Origin: Desulfobacteraceae bacterium
Lineage (GTDB): Bacteria; Desulfobacterota; Desulfobacteria; Desulfobacterales; Desulfobacteraceae
Length of the DNA stretch: 38,786 bases
Direction of reading: 5' to 3'
NCBI GenBank assembly: GCA_024226935.1
Contig: JAAELK010000573.1
Coordinates: 1-38,786 of the forward strand
Shown: positions 10,452 through 21,747 of the stretch, in pieces
Position numbering within the stretch: the first letter of the stretch is position 1
Layout: every line of letters begins with the position of its first letter
Made by a program: the position numbers and the translations under genes
The notes under the pieces: generated by a model
What the model was told of the DNA's origin: nothing
Database searches by the model: none
What the model saw: only the letters and a program-made list of their open reading frames with translations

Positions 10452-10483
10452 TTAGTCTTTACCATATCTTTAATAGGCTTGTT

Positions 10484-10638
10484 TTAATCTATTAAGTCTA
10501 TTTTCATAGCTTAATAGCATTATTTCAAACTATTAAAAAAAATTATATTGCAATATCGATATCATATTAGTTATAATAGTTTTAAATTAATCTATTATGA
10601 TTAGATTTTTGGGTTAACAGATTTATATTAATCTATTA
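10484..10638 (+). promoter_or_regulatory. hipBA operator repeats
   Basis: TTAATCTATTA occurs three times, at 10484-10494, 10587-10597 and 10628-10638. The core TTAAT-NN-ATTAA is palindromic, as expected for a dimeric HTH repressor such as HipB. The last copy lies just before the hipB ribosome-binding site. Autorepression of hipBA through such repeats is the known mode, and I infer it here from spacing and palindromy. Confidence 0.6.
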
Positions 10639-10652
10639 AATAAGAGGTTGCT

Positions 10653-12978: not shown

Positions 12979-13602
12979 ATGAGTCTACTCTCGTCTAACA
13001 CTGCTTTTACTCGATATTTGATCCACCCTCCCCCAGCCGAAAATAAGGCAAACAATATCAAGGAACGTATTTTCAAAGGCCTCAAAGCCAATACAATGCC
13101 TAAGGTTCAAAGTCCCCAGGAGGAGATGATAGTTGGATGGGTACCATTCGAAAAACCTTTCAAACCTGACTTCAATACAGATACATTTACCTATGGCGTG
13201 GACATGCTCTTTTCTCTAAGGATTGATAAGAAAAAAATCCCAGCCAAACTTGTACAACGAGAACTGGAAGTGGCCACTGAAAAAAAAAAAGAAGAGCAAA
13301 ACCGAAAAGTCATATCCCGCTCTGAAAAAAATGAGCTAAAAGAACAAATTCTGGATCAACTAATGGTAAAAACACCTTTTAATTCAGACATTCATAATGT
13401 CTGTTGGAATTTAAATACAAATGAACTCTTTTTTTTAGCAGGCCCCAATGCTGCCAAAGAAATGTTTGAAACTTTGTTCTTAAAGTCATTTGAAATGAAA
13501 TTAATTCCCCTGTTTGCCTATACTCTGGCAAATTTTAAATTGGGTACTCTATCAAACCAAGACAAAGAAAAACTTGTAACCCTTTCCCCTTCAGGAGTGT
13601 GA
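12979..13602 (+). CDS. RdgC-like protein, N-terminal part
   Basis: 207 residues with an RdgC signature. MIVGWVPFEKPF resembles the N-terminal strand region, YGVDMLFSLRIDKKKIPAKLVQREL matches the conserved helix, and VCWNLNTNELFFLAGPNAAKEMFETLFLKSF is characteristic. RdgC is a ring-shaped double-strand DNA-binding protein that limits RecA loading. E. coli RdgC is about 300 residues and this product stops early. The missing half is plausibly the next gene, which starts 5 bp downstream. The two are probably co-translated. Confidence 0.7.
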   Translation: MSLLSSNTAFTRYLIHPPPAENKANNIKERIFKGLKANTMPKVQSPQEEMIVGWVPFEKPFKPDFNTDTFTYGVDMLFSLRIDKKKIPAKLVQRELEVATEKKKEEQNRKVISRSEKNELKEQILDQLMVKTPFNSDIHNVCWNLNTNELFFLAGPNAAKEMFETLFLKSFEMKLIPLFAYTLANFKLGTLSNQDKEKLVTLSPSGV

Positions 13603-14443: not shown

Positions 14444-15072
14444 CTTCTAAGCCGCCTGTACGGCGGTTCACTAATGCTAATGTCCATGATAATCAGTTTT
14501 TTACTTCTAAGCCGCCTATACGGCGGTTCACCACAAATCTTTGGAACGAATTGGGCTAAAATACTTCTAAGCCGCCTATACGGCGGTTCACAATTGAAAT
14601 TGAAATACCCAGGACAAAAGATTCTTCTAAGCCGCCTATACGGCGGTTCACACACATTGCATTACAAAAAATCAATTTTACACCTTCTAAGCCGCCTATA
14701 CGGCGGTTCACGATTTTGATTTAATAAAAGTTCACCGATGTGACTTCTAAGCCGCCTATACGGCGGTTCACTTTTTTTTCATCTGTCTTTATCCTTGTTT
14801 GGACTTCTAAGCCGCCTATACGGCGGTTCACTTTTAATCGCCATTGAATTTTTTTCCCATAATCTTCTAAGCCGCCTATACGGCGGTTCACTGATTGCCC
14901 TTGTTTATGATCCCTCGGATTAACTTCTAAGCCGCCTATACGGCGGTTCACATATTTGGTCTGAACAATTTAAAGAATCATACACTTCTAAGCCGCCTAT
15001 ACGGCGGTTCACTTATGGAATTAAAATTACTAAATTTATCATCTCTTCTAAGCCGCCTATACGGCGGTTCAC
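14444..15072 (-). CRISPR. Type I-F CRISPR array 1, 11 repeats and 10 spacers
   Basis: 28-bp repeats start at 14444, 14504, 14564, 14624, 14684, 14744, 14804, 14864, 14924, 14985 and 15045. Spacers are 32 bp except one of 33 bp (14952-14984). On the minus strand the repeat starts GTGAACCGCC and ends GGCGGCTTAGAAG, with a CCGCC-GTATA-GGCGG hairpin typical of I-F. Cas6f cleavage after the stem would leave an 8-nt handle CUUAGAAG. The only variant repeat is the one at 14444 (loop G for A), which marks the leader-distal end. Transcription is therefore on the minus strand from the leader at 15073. Confidence 0.98.
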
Positions 15073-15139
15073 AGAAACAAATACTCACTAACATATTGAA
15101 ATATCAATAAATTATCAAAGAACTACCAAAACAACCTTT
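15073..15139 (-). promoter_or_regulatory. Leader of CRISPR array 1 with IHF consensus
   Basis: Bases 15085-15139 are identical to 16351-16405 upstream of array 2. TATCAATAAATTA at 15102-15114 fits the IHF consensus WATCAANNNNTTR, about 30 bases from the first repeat. In I-E and I-F systems IHF bending of the leader directs Cas1-Cas2 to insert new spacers. Confidence 0.75.
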
Positions 15140-15208
15140 GTTTTAGCTGCCATAAAAATACTCAATAAAAGTAGATAGTTAAGATTTGTCTTGCCAACAA
15201 AGGGTAAA

Positions 15209-15814
15209 TTAAAAAATTGGCAAAGCTACAGGGTTAGCCCGGGTAGACAAACCATAAAAATTAAAACTCCCCACAATTTGAAATTTTTGAGGGTTCGCAT
15301 CTTTTTTAATAAACAAAGAAAATGCTTGCCTGGTACTTTTACTCTGCATCAAAATAAAGGGCAAAGATTTTTTTTGTCGAGCTGAAATTAATTTATGCCG
15401 TCCTGCCAATTTTTTTTCGTCAAGCTCTATACCTTTTTTGGCTAAATGTTTGACCAATCTTAATTCAGATTTTAGAGAGTATAATTCAGTTGCTTTCTCT
15501 GAAAACCGATCTCTTTGAAAAACAGCAAGTTTATGTTTTTCAGGAACTGGTTTGATGTCAGACATGGTAATTGCTCCGGCTTTTAAAAAGAAATCGAGCT
15601 TCCGGTTATCCTTTATGTCTGACAAAGTTTTTTTATCGGAAAATAATCTTATAGTTTTCCCAGGTTTCTGATCAAGATCTGGAAAGGATATTCCGACATG
15701 AGTTATTTTTTGAGCGGCAAAAATTTCATGGATGGTCTTGTATAGTTTTCCCAGGACAGCTTCCAAAGCATTTGTTGTTTCAATAATTTTGCAATCAAAA
15801 TAATTAGTTGTCAT
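15209..15814 (-). CDS. cas6f: Cas6f (Csy4) crRNA endoribonuclease
   Basis: 201 residues, slightly longer than P. aeruginosa Csy4 (187). Conserved blocks are VGISFPDLD, SLPFILMQSKSTRQAFSLFI and the C-terminal SFNFYGLS. The catalytic His is at position 29 (KTIHEIF), as in the model enzyme. The Ser of the SKST segment and the Tyr of FYGLS match the other active-site residues, so the enzyme looks active. It binds the repeat hairpin, cleaves at its 3' base and stays on the crRNA 3' end. The ATG follows AAGGAGAAATAA. The gene sits between the two arrays, and a degenerate repeat (15831-15858) lies just upstream of its ribosome-binding site, so its mRNA is likely the tail of the array 2 transcript. 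Confidence 0.93.
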   Translation of the reverse strand: MTTNYFDCKIIETTNALEAVLGKLYKTIHEIFAAQKITHVGISFPDLDQKPGKTIRLFSDKKTLSDIKDNRKLDFFLKAGAITMSDIKPVPEKHKLAVFQRDRFSEKATELYSLKSELRLVKHLAKKGIELDEKKLAGRHKLISARQKKSLPFILMQSKSTRQAFSLFIKKDANPQKFQIVGSFNFYGLSTRANPVALPIF

Positions 15815-15830
15815 TTATTTCTCCTTTTTT

Positions 15831-15858
15831 TTAAAAAGCCACCTATACGACGGTTCAT
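15831..15858 (-). repeat. Degenerate terminal CRISPR repeat in the cas6f 5' leader
   Basis: On the minus strand the stem reads CCGTC-GTATA-GGTGG. Two changes turn G-C pairs into G-U pairs, so the hairpin can still form. The 3' handle has decayed to CTTTTTAA. It ends 16 bases before the cas6f start codon and marks the leader-distal end of array 2. Confidence 0.85.
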
Positions 15859-16338
15859 ATTTTAACAAATTGTTGTCGTGTCTCTACCAACTTCTAAGCC
15901 GCCTATACGGCGGTTCACTTATACCCTTCATTGTCGGTTGAAACAACTTCCTTCTAAGCCGCCTATACGGCGGTTCACGCAAAATCTTCGGTGCATCAGA
16001 TCCGTTTGACCTTCTAAGCCGCCTATACGGCGGTTCACAGATTATTTATCTTAATTCTAAATAATTTTCACTTCTAAGCCGCCTATACGGCGGTTCACGG
16101 TCATTTGTTTTGCTACTGTACTCGTGGAATCTTCTAAGCCGCCTATACGGCGGTTCACGCTTCTCCGTCGTCGGACACTAACATTTCATCCTTCTAAGCC
16201 GCCTATACGGCGGTTCACTCCTGATCTCTTCCAACATCATTCCAATTTTACTTCTAAGCCGCCTATACGGCGGTTCACTTGCCGGGAATTTATCAACTAC
16301 AGACTCTATCCTTCTAAGCCGCCTATACGGCGGTTCAC
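15831..16338 (-). CRISPR. Type I-F CRISPR array 2, 9 repeats (1 degenerate) and 8 spacers
   Basis: Repeats start at 15831 (degenerate), 15891, 15951, 16011, 16071, 16131, 16191, 16251 and 16311. All spacers are 32 bp. The eight intact repeats are identical to each other and to array 1. The leader lies at the high-coordinate end, between the first repeat and cas7f, so the array is transcribed on the minus strand toward cas6f. No spacer is obviously identical to another spacer or to the rest of the window by eye. Confidence 0.98.
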
Positions 16339-16405
16339 AGGAACAAACGATCACTAACATATTGAAATATCAATAAATTATCAAAGAACTACCAAAACAA
16401 CCTTT
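16339..16405 (-). promoter_or_regulatory. Leader of CRISPR array 2 with IHF consensus
   Basis: Bases 16351-16405 are identical to the leader of array 1. The IHF-type site TATCAATAAATTA is at 16368-16380. The first 12 bases next to the repeat differ slightly between the leaders (AGGAACAAACGA here, AGAAACAAATAC in array 1). Confidence 0.75.
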
Positions 16406-16480
16406 AATTATGCTATCTACAAAAAAATCTAATAAAATCAATTTGTTAAAAACATGACAAAAAATAAAGGGTAAAACAAA

Positions 16481-17521
16481 CTATTTACTGCTTCCACTAA
16501 AAACGCCACCCTTGATAAGACAAGCCATAACATAATGATGATCATTATTAAGTTTTTTCTGACAATCATCAATTAAACTATCCAGGTTTAATAAATGAGA
16601 ATATAAATCTGATTTGTTTTTACTCGGCAATCTCGTGGCTACTGAAAATTGTTGAATAACGCCGTATGGCTCAATAGGTGCTGGAAAAATCGAAGGGTCC
16701 GGATTATCATCAATAAGAGGATACCAAGAATCAATAGTCCGAATTGCATTACCAATTTTCTGGCTATGCATCTGAGCTTGTTTGCCTTTTTCATGGTCAA
16801 CATAAGCAAGAAATTTACCTTTTTTATTCTCAATAAAATCTTGCGATGGATAAATTTCCTGTCCAGAACCAATATTTCCGGACCCAGTTACATTAATTGT
16901 AAAAGATTCAGCATCTCCAGCAAGTGCTTTCGCAATTTTTCCGGTAATCAAATCAAAGTTTTTTTGTTCTGTTTTCCTGACAGCACTCTGAAGATCATTG
17001 GAAGGCATAAATATAAATTCTTTATCATCAAAAACAATCTTAACAGACTTTTCGATTGATACTCGGTTTCTCCAAAACCATCTGGCGTTGATAATATTTT
17101 TCAAATATAACTCTGCCAAGATTGTAAATCCTTTTTTCTTTTTATAAACAGAGAAAAAATCCGTAAGTTTTGCCTGGAATCTTTGGACATTACAGGCTCC
17201 AGGAAACGCTGTGTTATTCAAAAATTTCACAGAAAAGTTAAGAAAAAAAGTATCTATATCATTTGGCAGGTAACAAACATCAATAGTTTGAATATTTGCT
17301 CTTTCAGGATCTAATTGTTTTTCAAGATTGTCCTCGCCTTTCTTTTTATGAACATTGCTGTAATTGCTGATTGTACCTCTAACAGTTTGTTGTTGAATCA
17401 ACACAGGCTCTACGTCCTGTCCTCTTAAATATGTAAACAATCCATTAGAAGGCACAATACTACGAGAATAATTCAACATCGAAGGGATTTCCATTTTATC
17501 CTTTTTAATTTTTGTCGCCAT
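16481..17521 (-). CDS. cas7f: Cas7f (Csy3) crRNA backbone subunit
   Basis: 346 residues from the ATG at 17521, which follows AAAGGAATTGTATC. A frame from 17581 would overlap cas5f. Family blocks are LNYSRSIVPSNGLF near the N-terminus, NIINARWFWRNRVS (about residues 145-158), GSGQEIYPSQDFIE, and APIEPYGVIQQF in the C-terminal third. In I-F complexes six copies coat the spacer part of the crRNA and contact the target DNA. The gene is third in the cas8f-cas5f-cas7f run, and its stop is followed by the leader of array 2. Its length is typical and there is no frameshift. Confidence 0.93.
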   Translation of the reverse strand: MATKIKKDKMEIPSMLNYSRSIVPSNGLFTYLRGQDVEPVLIQQQTVRGTISNYSNVHKKKGEDNLEKQLDPERANIQTIDVCYLPNDIDTFFLNFSVKFLNNTAFPGACNVQRFQAKLTDFFSVYKKKKGFTILAELYLKNIINARWFWRNRVSIEKSVKIVFDDKEFIFMPSNDLQSAVRKTEQKNFDLITGKIAKALAGDAESFTINVTGSGNIGSGQEIYPSQDFIENKKGKFLAYVDHEKGKQAQMHSQKIGNAIRTIDSWYPLIDDNPDPSIFPAPIEPYGVIQQFSVATRLPSKNKSDLYSHLLNLDSLIDDCQKKLNNDHHYVMACLIKGGVFSGSSK

Positions 17522-17552
17522 GATACAATTCCTTTTTTTGTTTCTGAAGTAG

Positions 17553-18428
17553 TTATGTTGTAGTTGTATAATAAAAACCAAATTCTGAATTGTTTTTATG
17601 TTGCCAAAAAATTTTGGAGGGTTCTACCTGATCTATAAAATAATCAGACACTATTCTTTGTATTGGAATAAATTCTCCTATATTAATAATTGGTTCGGCA
17701 TAAATATGAGGTTGTGATCCTCGGACACCTAATCTTTTTTGAGGGGTCTCGATTGCTTGATATCCAACTGCAATTGGAACGATCCAACCAGGTTGTTGAC
17801 GATTCCAGATAGGATTACCTGATTTTTGCTCGACTTTATAAATAATTAAAGCATTCAAAAGTTCATCCAGCGAATCTTGATTATCATTATCATCTATATC
17901 AGCTAACAAATCTGTTCGCTCGACCAAAAAATATCCTTGTGAAATAGTTTCAAGGTAATCCCACAATTCTTGTTCATCAAGAAAATATTCTGCTTCATTC
18001 GTCGGCCAGCAAGTCCCTCCGCATAACGGGAAATCATTAAGAAAGATATGAGCATACTCGCCCACAATTTCTGGCAAATTTTCTGCCGGATCTCCCTGGA
18101 TAGTTACAGAAAAAATTAAAGAAACTATCATGTCGGCCTTAATTTCTTCTAAGATAGGTGGGGCGATCATTTTGTTTTTTACAAGGCCTTCAGTTTCTCC
18201 TGTACATTTTGGATGACCATCATATAGCTGAAAAGTATGAGAGATAATAGATACGCCATTCACGGTTATCCGGTTATCCGGAAAAAGTTCATTAACTTTC
18301 CGTTCGAAAAGATGACCATACCCAGTAAATGATGTAATTGCCGGGAACCCAGTAATATATTGATTTGCCTCAGCATTGAGCCCTTCTACTCGGACATCTT
18401 TAAATAAAATATATCCATTTGGAATCAT
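17553..18428 (-). CDS. cas5f: Cas5f (Csy2) crRNA 5'-handle subunit
   Basis: 291 residues. It begins MIPNGYILFKDVRVEGLNAE and has ITGFPAITSFTGYGHLFERK and VNGVSIISHTFQLYDG, which match the RAMP core of Csy2. The C-terminal part has GWIVPIAVGYQAIETP and EPIINIGEF, also typical. It binds the 5' handle together with Cas8f. The start is 2 bp after the cas8f stop, with AAAGGA upstream. It is a separate gene, unlike Tn7-linked I-F3 systems, where Cas8 and Cas5 are fused. Length is slightly below the P. aeruginosa protein. Confidence 0.9.
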   Translation of the reverse strand: MIPNGYILFKDVRVEGLNAEANQYITGFPAITSFTGYGHLFERKVNELFPDNRITVNGVSIISHTFQLYDGHPKCTGETEGLVKNKMIAPPILEEIKADMIVSLIFSVTIQGDPAENLPEIVGEYAHIFLNDFPLCGGTCWPTNEAEYFLDEQELWDYLETISQGYFLVERTDLLADIDDNDNQDSLDELLNALIIYKVEQKSGNPIWNRQQPGWIVPIAVGYQAIETPQKRLGVRGSQPHIYAEPIINIGEFIPIQRIVSDYFIDQVEPSKIFWQHKNNSEFGFYYTTTT

Positions 18429-18430
18429 AA

Positions 18431-19696
18431 TTAGAATCCTTTCCTAAAAACGGTTTTAAAAATTTCTCTAAACTCTTTTTCAACCGAGTCATTAAGTATT
18501 TTTTCATGATGCCGTCTGATGTTACTCATATTTGTATCCAGCAAAGTTTCTATTTCCAAAGAGCTTATGTTTTTACCGTTCCTGTATTTAGCATCTATTA
18601 ATTTATGTTCAACATCAGAAATGAAATCAAACACCATCTCTGGGCGCTTTATTGAAAACAAATTCCGGGCCAGATAACGAGCATCAAAAAGAATAAAATT
18701 CACAATTTTCCGGATTTCTCGATTTTTTTTTGCCCGGATTTTTCGGTTGTTTGATTGACTTTTTTCAATCTTTTTGAAAACCTCAAAATCCATTTGTTCA
18801 ACCCATACAGATGGAAAAAGAGTTTTATTGGCAGGCAAATACAAAAGGATTCTCTTTAAAATATTCAGCGGTGCTTTTTTCCCGGGGGGCAAGGCCAACA
18901 AATGCTTGTGCCTACCGCCAAGTTCGCTATTGAGCAATCCTGAATTAATTGGGTTTGCCCCAGCTACAACCGTATTGCGAAAAGCTACAAATTGATTTGA
19001 ATTACTCACAACTTTTCCAATTCGACGATGAAATTCATCGCTGAGCCCCGAATGCTGCACCGGAGTAATGACAACATATTTATCATTGTCGCATGGAAAG
19101 AAAATTTGTTTAGAAAAACGGTGAACAGCATCTTTGTTGGGGTTTTCCATATTATTTTGAATAGCCTGTCCAATTTCTTTGGCAATCTTTTCAGGCAAAC
19201 CCATCTCAATTAAAGTTTGCCGAACAAGCGAATCTGTTTTAAATTCAACACCGATACATATGAATTTTTCTTCCAAGATAAATTGATGGGATAAAATCTT
19301 TTGGGCAAACGATATACTTGAGTTTTCCACAGAACCGTATTTTTTGGTCATCATAACTGTTCTGGAAGACACAAACGGTTGAACATCTTTATTTTTGATC
19401 GTCCTAAAAAGAGGCTTGCCGCCGTTATTGGCATTCGGAATTTTTGTATTGAATTCATGAAGCCCTTTTTTAGCCACTGTTAAAAAACCTTTATGTTTCA
19501 AAGGATCAGATAGCAATGCTTCAGTGTTAGCAGAGCCTTTAATACATAGACCTAAATATTTTTTTAACTCTTTTTTTGTTATTTCGATTACCGATTCTTG
19601 TCGAAAAGCGCAAATCTTTTTGTAGATAAATTCAGTCCATTGCTTCTCTGAATCTGTTTCTTGATCTGCTATTTTTAATAGATCTTTAAATTTCAT
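18431..19696 (-). CDS. cas8f: Cas8f (Csy1) large subunit
   Basis: 421 residues from the ATG at 19696, 7 bases after GGAG. The ATG at 19702 is too close to that site. The block ANPINSGLLNSELGGRHKHL LALPP (split here for length, about residues 250-275) corresponds to the conserved GG...NPQN...LN...GG...LPP segment of Csy1. The length is near that of P. aeruginosa Csy1 (434). The C-terminal 130 residues are basic and helical, as in the helical bundle that recruits Cas2-3 in canonical I-F. There are almost no cysteines and no HNH motif, so this is not the Cas8-HNH variant. Cas8f recognises the PAM and begins DNA unwinding. Confidence 0.87.
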   Translation of the reverse strand: MKFKDLLKIADQETDSEKQWTEFIYKKICAFRQESVIEITKKELKKYLGLCIKGSANTEALLSDPLKHKGFLTVAKKGLHEFNTKIPNANNGGKPLFRTIKNKDVQPFVSSRTVMMTKKYGSVENSSISFAQKILSHQFILEEKFICIGVEFKTDSLVRQTLIEMGLPEKIAKEIGQAIQNNMENPNKDAVHRFSKQIFFPCDNDKYVVITPVQHSGLSDEFHRRIGKVVSNSNQFVAFRNTVVAGANPINSGLLNSELGGRHKHLLALPPGKKAPLNILKRILLYLPANKTLFPSVWVEQMDFEVFKKIEKSQSNNRKIRAKKNREIRKIVNFILFDARYLARNLFSIKRPEMVFDFISDVEHKLIDAKYRNGKNISSLEIETLLDTNMSNIRRHHEKILNDSVEKEFREIFKTVFRKGF

Positions 19697-19761
19697 TTTC
19701 ATTCTCCATTTTTTTATTAAACAGATCGTTAAGACCCAAAAGCATCCTGCATTATTCTTTT

Positions 19762-21624: not shown

Positions 21625-21646
21625 GGTGCCTCCTTTTTAATTGTAA

Positions 21647-21734
21647 GCATAAAAGCATAAAAGCATAAAAGCATAAAAGCATAAAAGCATAAAAGCATAA
21701 AAGCATAAAAGCATAAAAGCATAAAAGCATAAAA
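21647..21734. repeat. Eleven tandem copies of GCATAAAA (candidate centromere)
   Basis: The 8-bp unit GCATAAAA is repeated 11 times without interruption, starting 22 bp upstream of the parA start codon. Tandem short repeats upstream of type Ib par operons serve as parC sites for RHH partner proteins. Iterons of a replication origin are an alternative. Confidence 0.8.
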
Positions 21735-21747
21735 ATAGAATATCTGA

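Follow-up and report, generated by a model that had tools for sequence, protein, structure and literature searches.

Does a CRISPR repeat that has degenerated just in front of cas6f control that gene, or is it the ordinary end of an array? The question is raised by a 38,786-nt stretch of a Desulfobacteraceae genome (contig JAAELK010000573.1, assembly GCA_024226935.1; hereafter the window), whose minus strand carries, in order, csy1-csy2-csy3, leader 2, array 2, cas6f, leader 1 and array 1 (Table 1). A first-pass annotation had proposed that cas6f is translated from its own pre-crRNA behind a foldable degenerate repeat, where Cas6f could bind or cut and so govern its own ribosome-binding site; simple decay of the terminal repeat was offered as the alternative.

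Table 1 Features of the type I-F locus in the window, in order of transcription.
Feature	Position	Strand	Basis or remark
csy1/cas8f, divergent	18431..19702	-	PF09611 1.2e-14; under TIGR02564 cut-off
csy2/cas5f	17553..18428	-	PF09614 3.7e-37
csy3/cas7f	16481..17521	-	likely ATG 17521; ORF list: TTG 17581
Leader 2	16339..16470, outer limit approximate	-	52-nt block identical to leader 1
Array 2: eight identical 28-nt repeats, seven 32-nt spacers between	15891..16338	-	repeat calls; CRISPR-DR4
Spacer 8, last of array 2	15859..15890	-	has promoter-like TAGAGA-16-TAAAAT (scan: chance level)
Degenerate terminal repeat, array 2	15831..15858	-	7/28 changed, 60-nt register
16-nt gap, AAGGAG ribosome-binding site 15821-15826	15815..15830	-	sequence
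cas6f/csy4, 201 aa	15209..15814	-	profile matches (TIGR02563 8.9e-25, PF09618 7.2e-31)
Leader 1, end of cas6f to array 1	15073..15203, outer limit approximate	-	shared block
Array 1: eleven repeats, last with one loop change	14444..15072	-	repeat calls

The perfect repeat of array 2, GTGAACCGCCGTATAGGCGGCTTAGAAG, recurs eight times with a period of 60 nt. That array 2 points toward cas6f, as first annotated, is borne out: the Rfam family CRISPR-DR4, which we take to be the I-F repeat class, exceeds its gathering score on the minus strand at 19 repeats (11 in array 1, 8 in array 2), and the leader block lies upstream of both arrays. This block is close to the arrays and identical in both leaders, which diverge further out; the leader-array unit would therefore have been duplicated or acquired from a common source, either as an old duplication or as a second acquisition. 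The two arrays have no spacer in common. CRISPR-DR4 does not match the degenerate repeat, and the leaders and the cas6f 5' UTR match no Rfam family above threshold apart from the repeats. All four effectors (Csy1-Csy2-Csy3-Csy4) pass the Pfam cut-offs; Csy1 and Csy2 stay under those of NCBIfam, and only the central stretch of Csy1 (423 aa) matches its Pfam model. Closely similar repeats occur at the other I-F loci of our comparison sample. By its effector genes and repeat class, the locus is assigned to type I-F.

Neither Cas1 (PF01867) nor I-F Cas3 (TIGR02562) was matched in the assembly (95% complete, 590 contigs), where by these profiles the cas1 and fused cas2-3 of a complete type I-F1 system appear to be missing. 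One weak Cas3_HD match, in a 630-aa ORF on another contig, was rejected: it looks by eye like an HDOD signalling protein. Among the proteins put through general family scans, none matched the tniQ/tns families of the I-F3 transposon at E 0.001. The genes around the locus encode a ParA-family protein, a second ParA-like protein (by eye), a topoisomerase, a DotM C-terminal domain, a TraG/TraD domain, a transglycosylase, an ArdC-type protein and HipA; as annotated, they mark a mobile element of conjugative type. This places an I-F effector set with two arrays (14444-19702) on such an element in an assembly where Cas1 and I-F Cas3 were not found, and the set may bind targets without cutting them, or borrow a Cas3. 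Elsewhere in the window, an RdgC-like protein of 207 aa (12979-13602) matches the first half of its family model only. Head-to-tail AAGCATAA 8-mers (21645-21742) lie just upstream of the ParA-family gene (start 21624) and could be partition-site or operator iterons. Four related TTAATAG-CTATTAA palindromes (10470-10640) precede a small HTH-like gene and hipA, and are likely operators of a HipA-type toxin-antitoxin pair.

The cas6f product can be aligned along its length to other Cas6f proteins and has relatives of solved structure. His29, Ser158, Phe165 and Tyr187, which we take to be the catalytic and RNA-contact positions of Csy4, fall in columns that are invariant among seven Cas6f, and His29 and Ser158 are also invariant among sixteen sequences. 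Cas6f activity is to be expected. An AlphaFold model of the protein was of low quality over the C-terminal half (mean pLDDT 66), and no claim made here rests on it.

Behind the eight identical repeats, in exact 60-nt register, stands the degenerate repeat ATGAACCGTCGTATAGGTGGCTTTTTAA. It is beyond doubt a repeat unit of the array, with the changes G1A, C9T, C18T, A24T, G25T, A26T and G28A; the 16 bases annotated between it and the start codon were confirmed (15830-15815). So was its stem, CCGUC/GGUGG, in which two former G-C pairs are now G8.U18 and U9.G17, and C6-G20, C7-G19, C10-G16 and the GUAUA loop are unchanged. Its energy is -1.5 kcal/mol, against -9.0 for the canonical repeat, and in RNA folds of the region the stem in the Cas6f register is populated to roughly 1-3%: it is possible rather than preferred. 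When seven changes were placed at random, all five pairs survived in 9-22% of trials; with exactly two substitutions in the stem, the probability of keeping five of five is 0.07-0.22, depending on the transition bias, and the kept stem alone is therefore weak evidence. From the register of I-F repeats, a Cas6f cut is predicted after nucleotide 20 (15839/15838). A study of Racr (PMC10651486) describes C6 and G20 as crucial for Cas6f binding and processing, and both are intact here. Racr repeats, stray I-F repeats whose RNA Cas6f binds and cuts, would be comparable; they are solitary and phage-borne, whereas the window repeat is in register with an array.

How unusual is such a repeat at the end of an I-F array? 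In a sample of 119 loci we chained I-F repeats, with at least three good units required for a chain, and examined the terminal unit of every array, accepted at up to 11 mismatches, so that badly decayed ones are missed. Outside the window this gave 93 arrays in 71 loci; 19 ended with the fetched stretch and one contained N, leaving 73 usable. The last repeat is unchanged in 34 of the 73 and carries at least three changes in 29. Among these 29 changed repeats, all five stem pairs are kept in 24 (five have lost at least one), pair 6-20 is kept in 26, and nucleotides 21-28 are altered in 27. Changes hit 45 of 580 positions in nucleotides 1-20 versus 95 of 232 in nucleotides 21-28 (Fisher p 6e-27, with rows that are not fully independent), and if only the first changed terminal repeat of each locus is counted, the full stem is present in 18 of 22. 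The window repeat has 3/20 and 4/8 changes in the same two parts, by itself not significant (Fisher p 0.14).

The degenerate repeat is thus best read as a normal I-F terminal repeat: in register, with its hairpin kept and nucleotides 21-28 changed. Similar G.U-keeping changes (C9T, C10T, C18T) are seen in the terminal repeat of locus L056, which has no cas6f behind it; indeed cas6f follows none of the other terminal repeats examined. A kept stem is usual in changed terminal repeats and is not evidence for control. Since a kept hairpin with a decayed last 8 nt is common among them, including where no cas6f follows, a special control element is unsupported, and this part of the first-pass proposal gives way to its own alternative of terminal decay, which matches the baseline both in stem retention and in the bias toward nucleotides 21-28. 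The division also fits a repeat that still forms the 3' end of the last crRNA. Degenerate terminal repeats, a term used in PMC8092290, are alike in these respects: they lie at the far array end, keep the hairpin and are changed in the 5'-handle part. What differs in the window is that a cas gene with its ribosome site begins 16 nt further on. Of the 93 outside arrays, only one (L095) was followed by an ORF of at least 60 codons that has a ribosome-site-like motif and starts within about 60 nt. Two other terminal I-F repeats, of L103 (a full G-C-rich stem, CTTTTTTA) and L082 (CCTTTTAT), combine a full stem with a T-run and look by eye as if they had turned into intrinsic terminators.

The gene order, on the other hand, is unusual. 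Both csy3 and cas6f were detected in 101 of the 119 loci (the other 18, lacking a detectable pair, were left out), and in none of these 101 other pairs does an array lie between them; from csy3 to the start of the cas6f match there are at most 50 nt in 99. Apparent duplicate contigs (L046/L059 and L043/L060) and near copies among the viral contigs make the distinct cases fewer than 101. The two larger gaps (L092, L146) were discounted: there the csy3 frame breaks off short of its end, and the remainder of csy3, with no repeat, lies in between. In eight plasmid or phage records examined, of 86 with a csy3 match, csy3 again adjoins cas6f with gaps of at most 48 nt; one of the eight, Caballeronia, was judged from tblastn positions. 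Because the two genes are neighbours throughout the sample, the order in the window is most likely derived. Compared with a standard type I-F (Csy) operon, the locus shares the four effector genes, the I-F repeat class, the 28+32 nt period and a leader and array downstream of cas6f; it differs in that an extra leader and array separate csy3 from cas6f, in the divergent Csy1 and in Cas1 and I-F Cas3 not being found in the assembly. Closest in setting are Vitreoscilla filiformis pVF1 and Pseudomonas sp. Leaf58 pBASL58, plasmids with csy1-csy2-csy3-cas6f and no cas3 annotated in the 7-kb stretch (their gene tables are incomplete), although in both csy3 adjoins cas6f, with gaps of 4 and 48 nt.

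Searches for the same arrangement returned the window alone. A pattern-based search by cas6f, which reaches close relatives only, gave no match in genome or viral contigs. At the protein level, cas6f had two matches besides the window among 58 genomes (29-31% identity) and one among plasmids (25%), none sharing the order. A csy1 search at E 1e-3 recovered nothing but the window itself from 389 genomes belonging to the class, and plasmids and viral contigs gave no match; by tblastn, Csy1 gave partial matches in 9 of 19 comparison loci. The repeat was likewise found in the window alone among the 58 genomes and in no viral contig, and a DNA search of plasmids gave no match.

From which RNA is cas6f then expressed? 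Between csy3 and cas6f the scan shows no terminator-like site on the minus strand besides the weak degenerate hairpin. As array 2 and cas6f have no convincing terminator between them, the gene is most likely read from RNA running through the array; transcripts of the csy operon probably also continue into it. A promoter-like TTGATA-17-TATGTT is present in both leaders (16384-16356 in leader 2), repeated because it belongs to the shared block, and leader 2 has a match to the IHF consensus at 16368-16380, from a scan at chance level. With eight perfect repeats upstream on the same RNA, Cas6f would cut its own message regardless of the degenerate repeat. That Cas6f severs its message from the array transcript is accordingly most likely, given the gene order and the known action of the enzyme. 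The 5' UTR would be 84 nt long if Cas6f cuts the final perfect repeat and 24 nt long if it cuts the degenerate one, and the message may be trimmed on both sides, array 1 being downstream. The proposed translation of cas6f from pre-crRNA hence survives as probable read-through, stripped of a special role for the foldable repeat.

We consider the following reading, taken as a whole, to be probable. In an effector-only type I-F locus carried by a mobile element, csy3 and cas6f would have been parted by a second leader-array unit. Transcription starting in leader 2, and probably also that of the csy operon, would then continue into cas6f. Cas6f would free its own message from the pre-crRNA at the upstream repeats, and translation would start from the gene's own AAGGAG site, with no dedicated feedback needed. 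Nucleotides 1-20 of the terminal repeat would be kept as the hairpin that forms the 3' handle of the last crRNA; nucleotides 21-28, which would serve as 5' handle to an unwanted crRNA, would have decayed. This decay would spare the cas6f message a crRNA-type 5' end: with an intact handle, the message would resemble a guide targeting the gene that encodes it. What is observed directly is the order of the genes, the changes in the repeat and the baseline set by other arrays; co-transcription, cutting and the reason for handle decay are what we infer from them. Evidence of selection against an extra crRNA is reported for type V-A terminal repeats (PMC6610086), where the changes disrupt processing itself. 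The parallel is therefore partial, and would have to be extended by analogy to the I-F handle.

The best placed of the other explanations, itself unlikely, gives cas6f a promoter of its own in the last spacer, the array merely ending in front of the gene. Its candidate is TAGAGA-16-TAAAAT (15886-15859), which agrees at 9 of 12 positions, has TG before the second hexamer and is the single promoter-like site found by the scan from leader 2 to the cas6f start. The scan as a whole, however, performs at chance level (24 sites versus 20.4 +/- 5.0 expected), and a transcript starting near 15852 would begin inside the repeat. Moreover, with csy3 and cas6f being close neighbours in the relatives, a dedicated promoter was probably unnecessary for the ancestral gene.

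Somewhat less probable still is an autogenous switch, in which cas6f translation would depend on whether Cas6f binds or cuts the degenerate repeat. The modelled fold has nucleotides 8-12 (GUCGU) paired with AUGAC, which holds the start codon, and nucleotides 21-26 (CUUUUU) partly paired with the ribosome site; by capturing or cutting the competing hairpin, Cas6f would open the start, giving positive feedback. The local fold is suggestive: the start codon is unpaired at 0.04, a value that becomes 0.90 once a canonical repeat is substituted, with both start codon and ribosome site then open. After the cut its three bases are 0.92-0.98 unpaired, and reverting C9T or C18T singly opens it to 0.94 or 0.91. 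Random controls seldom reproduce this. Both sites were equally closed in 1/1500 trials with seven random changes, 0/1500 with three plus four changes and 2/1500 with shuffled sequence, and the start codon alone was as closed in 0.7%, 0.4% and 2.3%, respectively. In these models the closure of the start by exactly the two stem changes would speak against pure decay, with the qualification that the fold feature was noticed before it was tested.

Other properties of the fold weigh against the switch. The ribosome site stays mostly paired after the cut or after reversion of nucleotides 9 or 18 (mean unpaired about 0.28 on reversion), and with at least 104 nt of upstream RNA included the start codon is already 0.17-0.28 open. 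Opening costs 3.96 kcal/mol, the 23rd highest of 31 window-gene rows, three others of which also have a start codon open at 0.05 or less; after the cut the cost is 3.01. As the cost is modest and the drop small, a large translational effect is not expected from the model. The hairpin, moreover, is kept in other arrays with no cas6f behind, and the searches yielded no relatives with the window's order in which to look for covariation. The bound 30S subunit usually reaches to about 25 nt before the ATG or less. With the expected cut, and the end of the hairpin, 25 nt upstream of the A of ATG, it appears unlikely that bound Cas6f would sterically block the ribosome site; this geometry, like the small change in opening energy, tells against the annotated control of that site by bound enzyme. 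Feedback control by Cas6f is, on these models, possible. A short upstream ORF was also considered. It opens at an ATG within the degenerate repeat and closes with a TGA overlapping the start codon of cas6f, and read by eye both stem changes are synonymous in it. We set it aside: the canonical repeat holds the same frame from a GTG, no ribosome site precedes it, and the frame has a one-in-three chance.

A broader variant, in which cas6f acts as a gene-sized spacer, is a shade more doubtful than the switch. The message would be excised on both sides (after nucleotide 20 of the repeat at 15858 or 15918, and of that at 15072), the degenerate repeat would exist in two states, its Cas6f hairpin competing against start-codon pairing, and Cas6f would raise its own translation while making crRNA. 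Very improbable is a terminator or attenuator role for the degenerate repeat with its U-run, by which fewer transcripts would pass from array 2 into cas6f: CCGTCGTATAGGTGG-CTTTTTAAAA is flagged by the scan, and the terminal repeats of L103 and L082 provide terminator-like precedents by eye, but the stem is worth just -1.5 kcal/mol and a strong terminator at this place would cut off cas6f. Least credible of all is an arrangement like CreR, a degenerate repeat beside a cas gene, with which the window shares that adjacency: the last spacer and degenerate repeat would guide the effector to a cas promoter, and yet within the window the longest spacer 8 seed beside CC is 6 nt and none of the three places listed is upstream of csy1, so that a spacer seed with PAM in a cas promoter is disfavoured.

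In the literature surveyed, part of it seen as excerpts and with subscription journals thinly covered, no natural cas6 regulated by its own array was met, which leaves its absence unproven. The DevTRS proteins of type I-C autoregulate by another route, according to PMC8616872. Closer in design are the PERSIST Csy4 circuits (PMC9095627), where an endoribonuclease stands under its own recognition site and positive feedback was built in human cells; unlike the locus in the window, they are synthetic, eukaryotic and use a 3' ON-switch.

For I-F arrays in general, the baseline obtained here means that foldability alone is no reason to call a degenerate repeat regulatory. For the locus at hand, if Cas6f does cut the message that encodes it out of the pre-crRNA, the supply of crRNA would be physically tied to the level of the enzyme, and the arrangement would be a natural counterpart of circuits built in synthetic biology.
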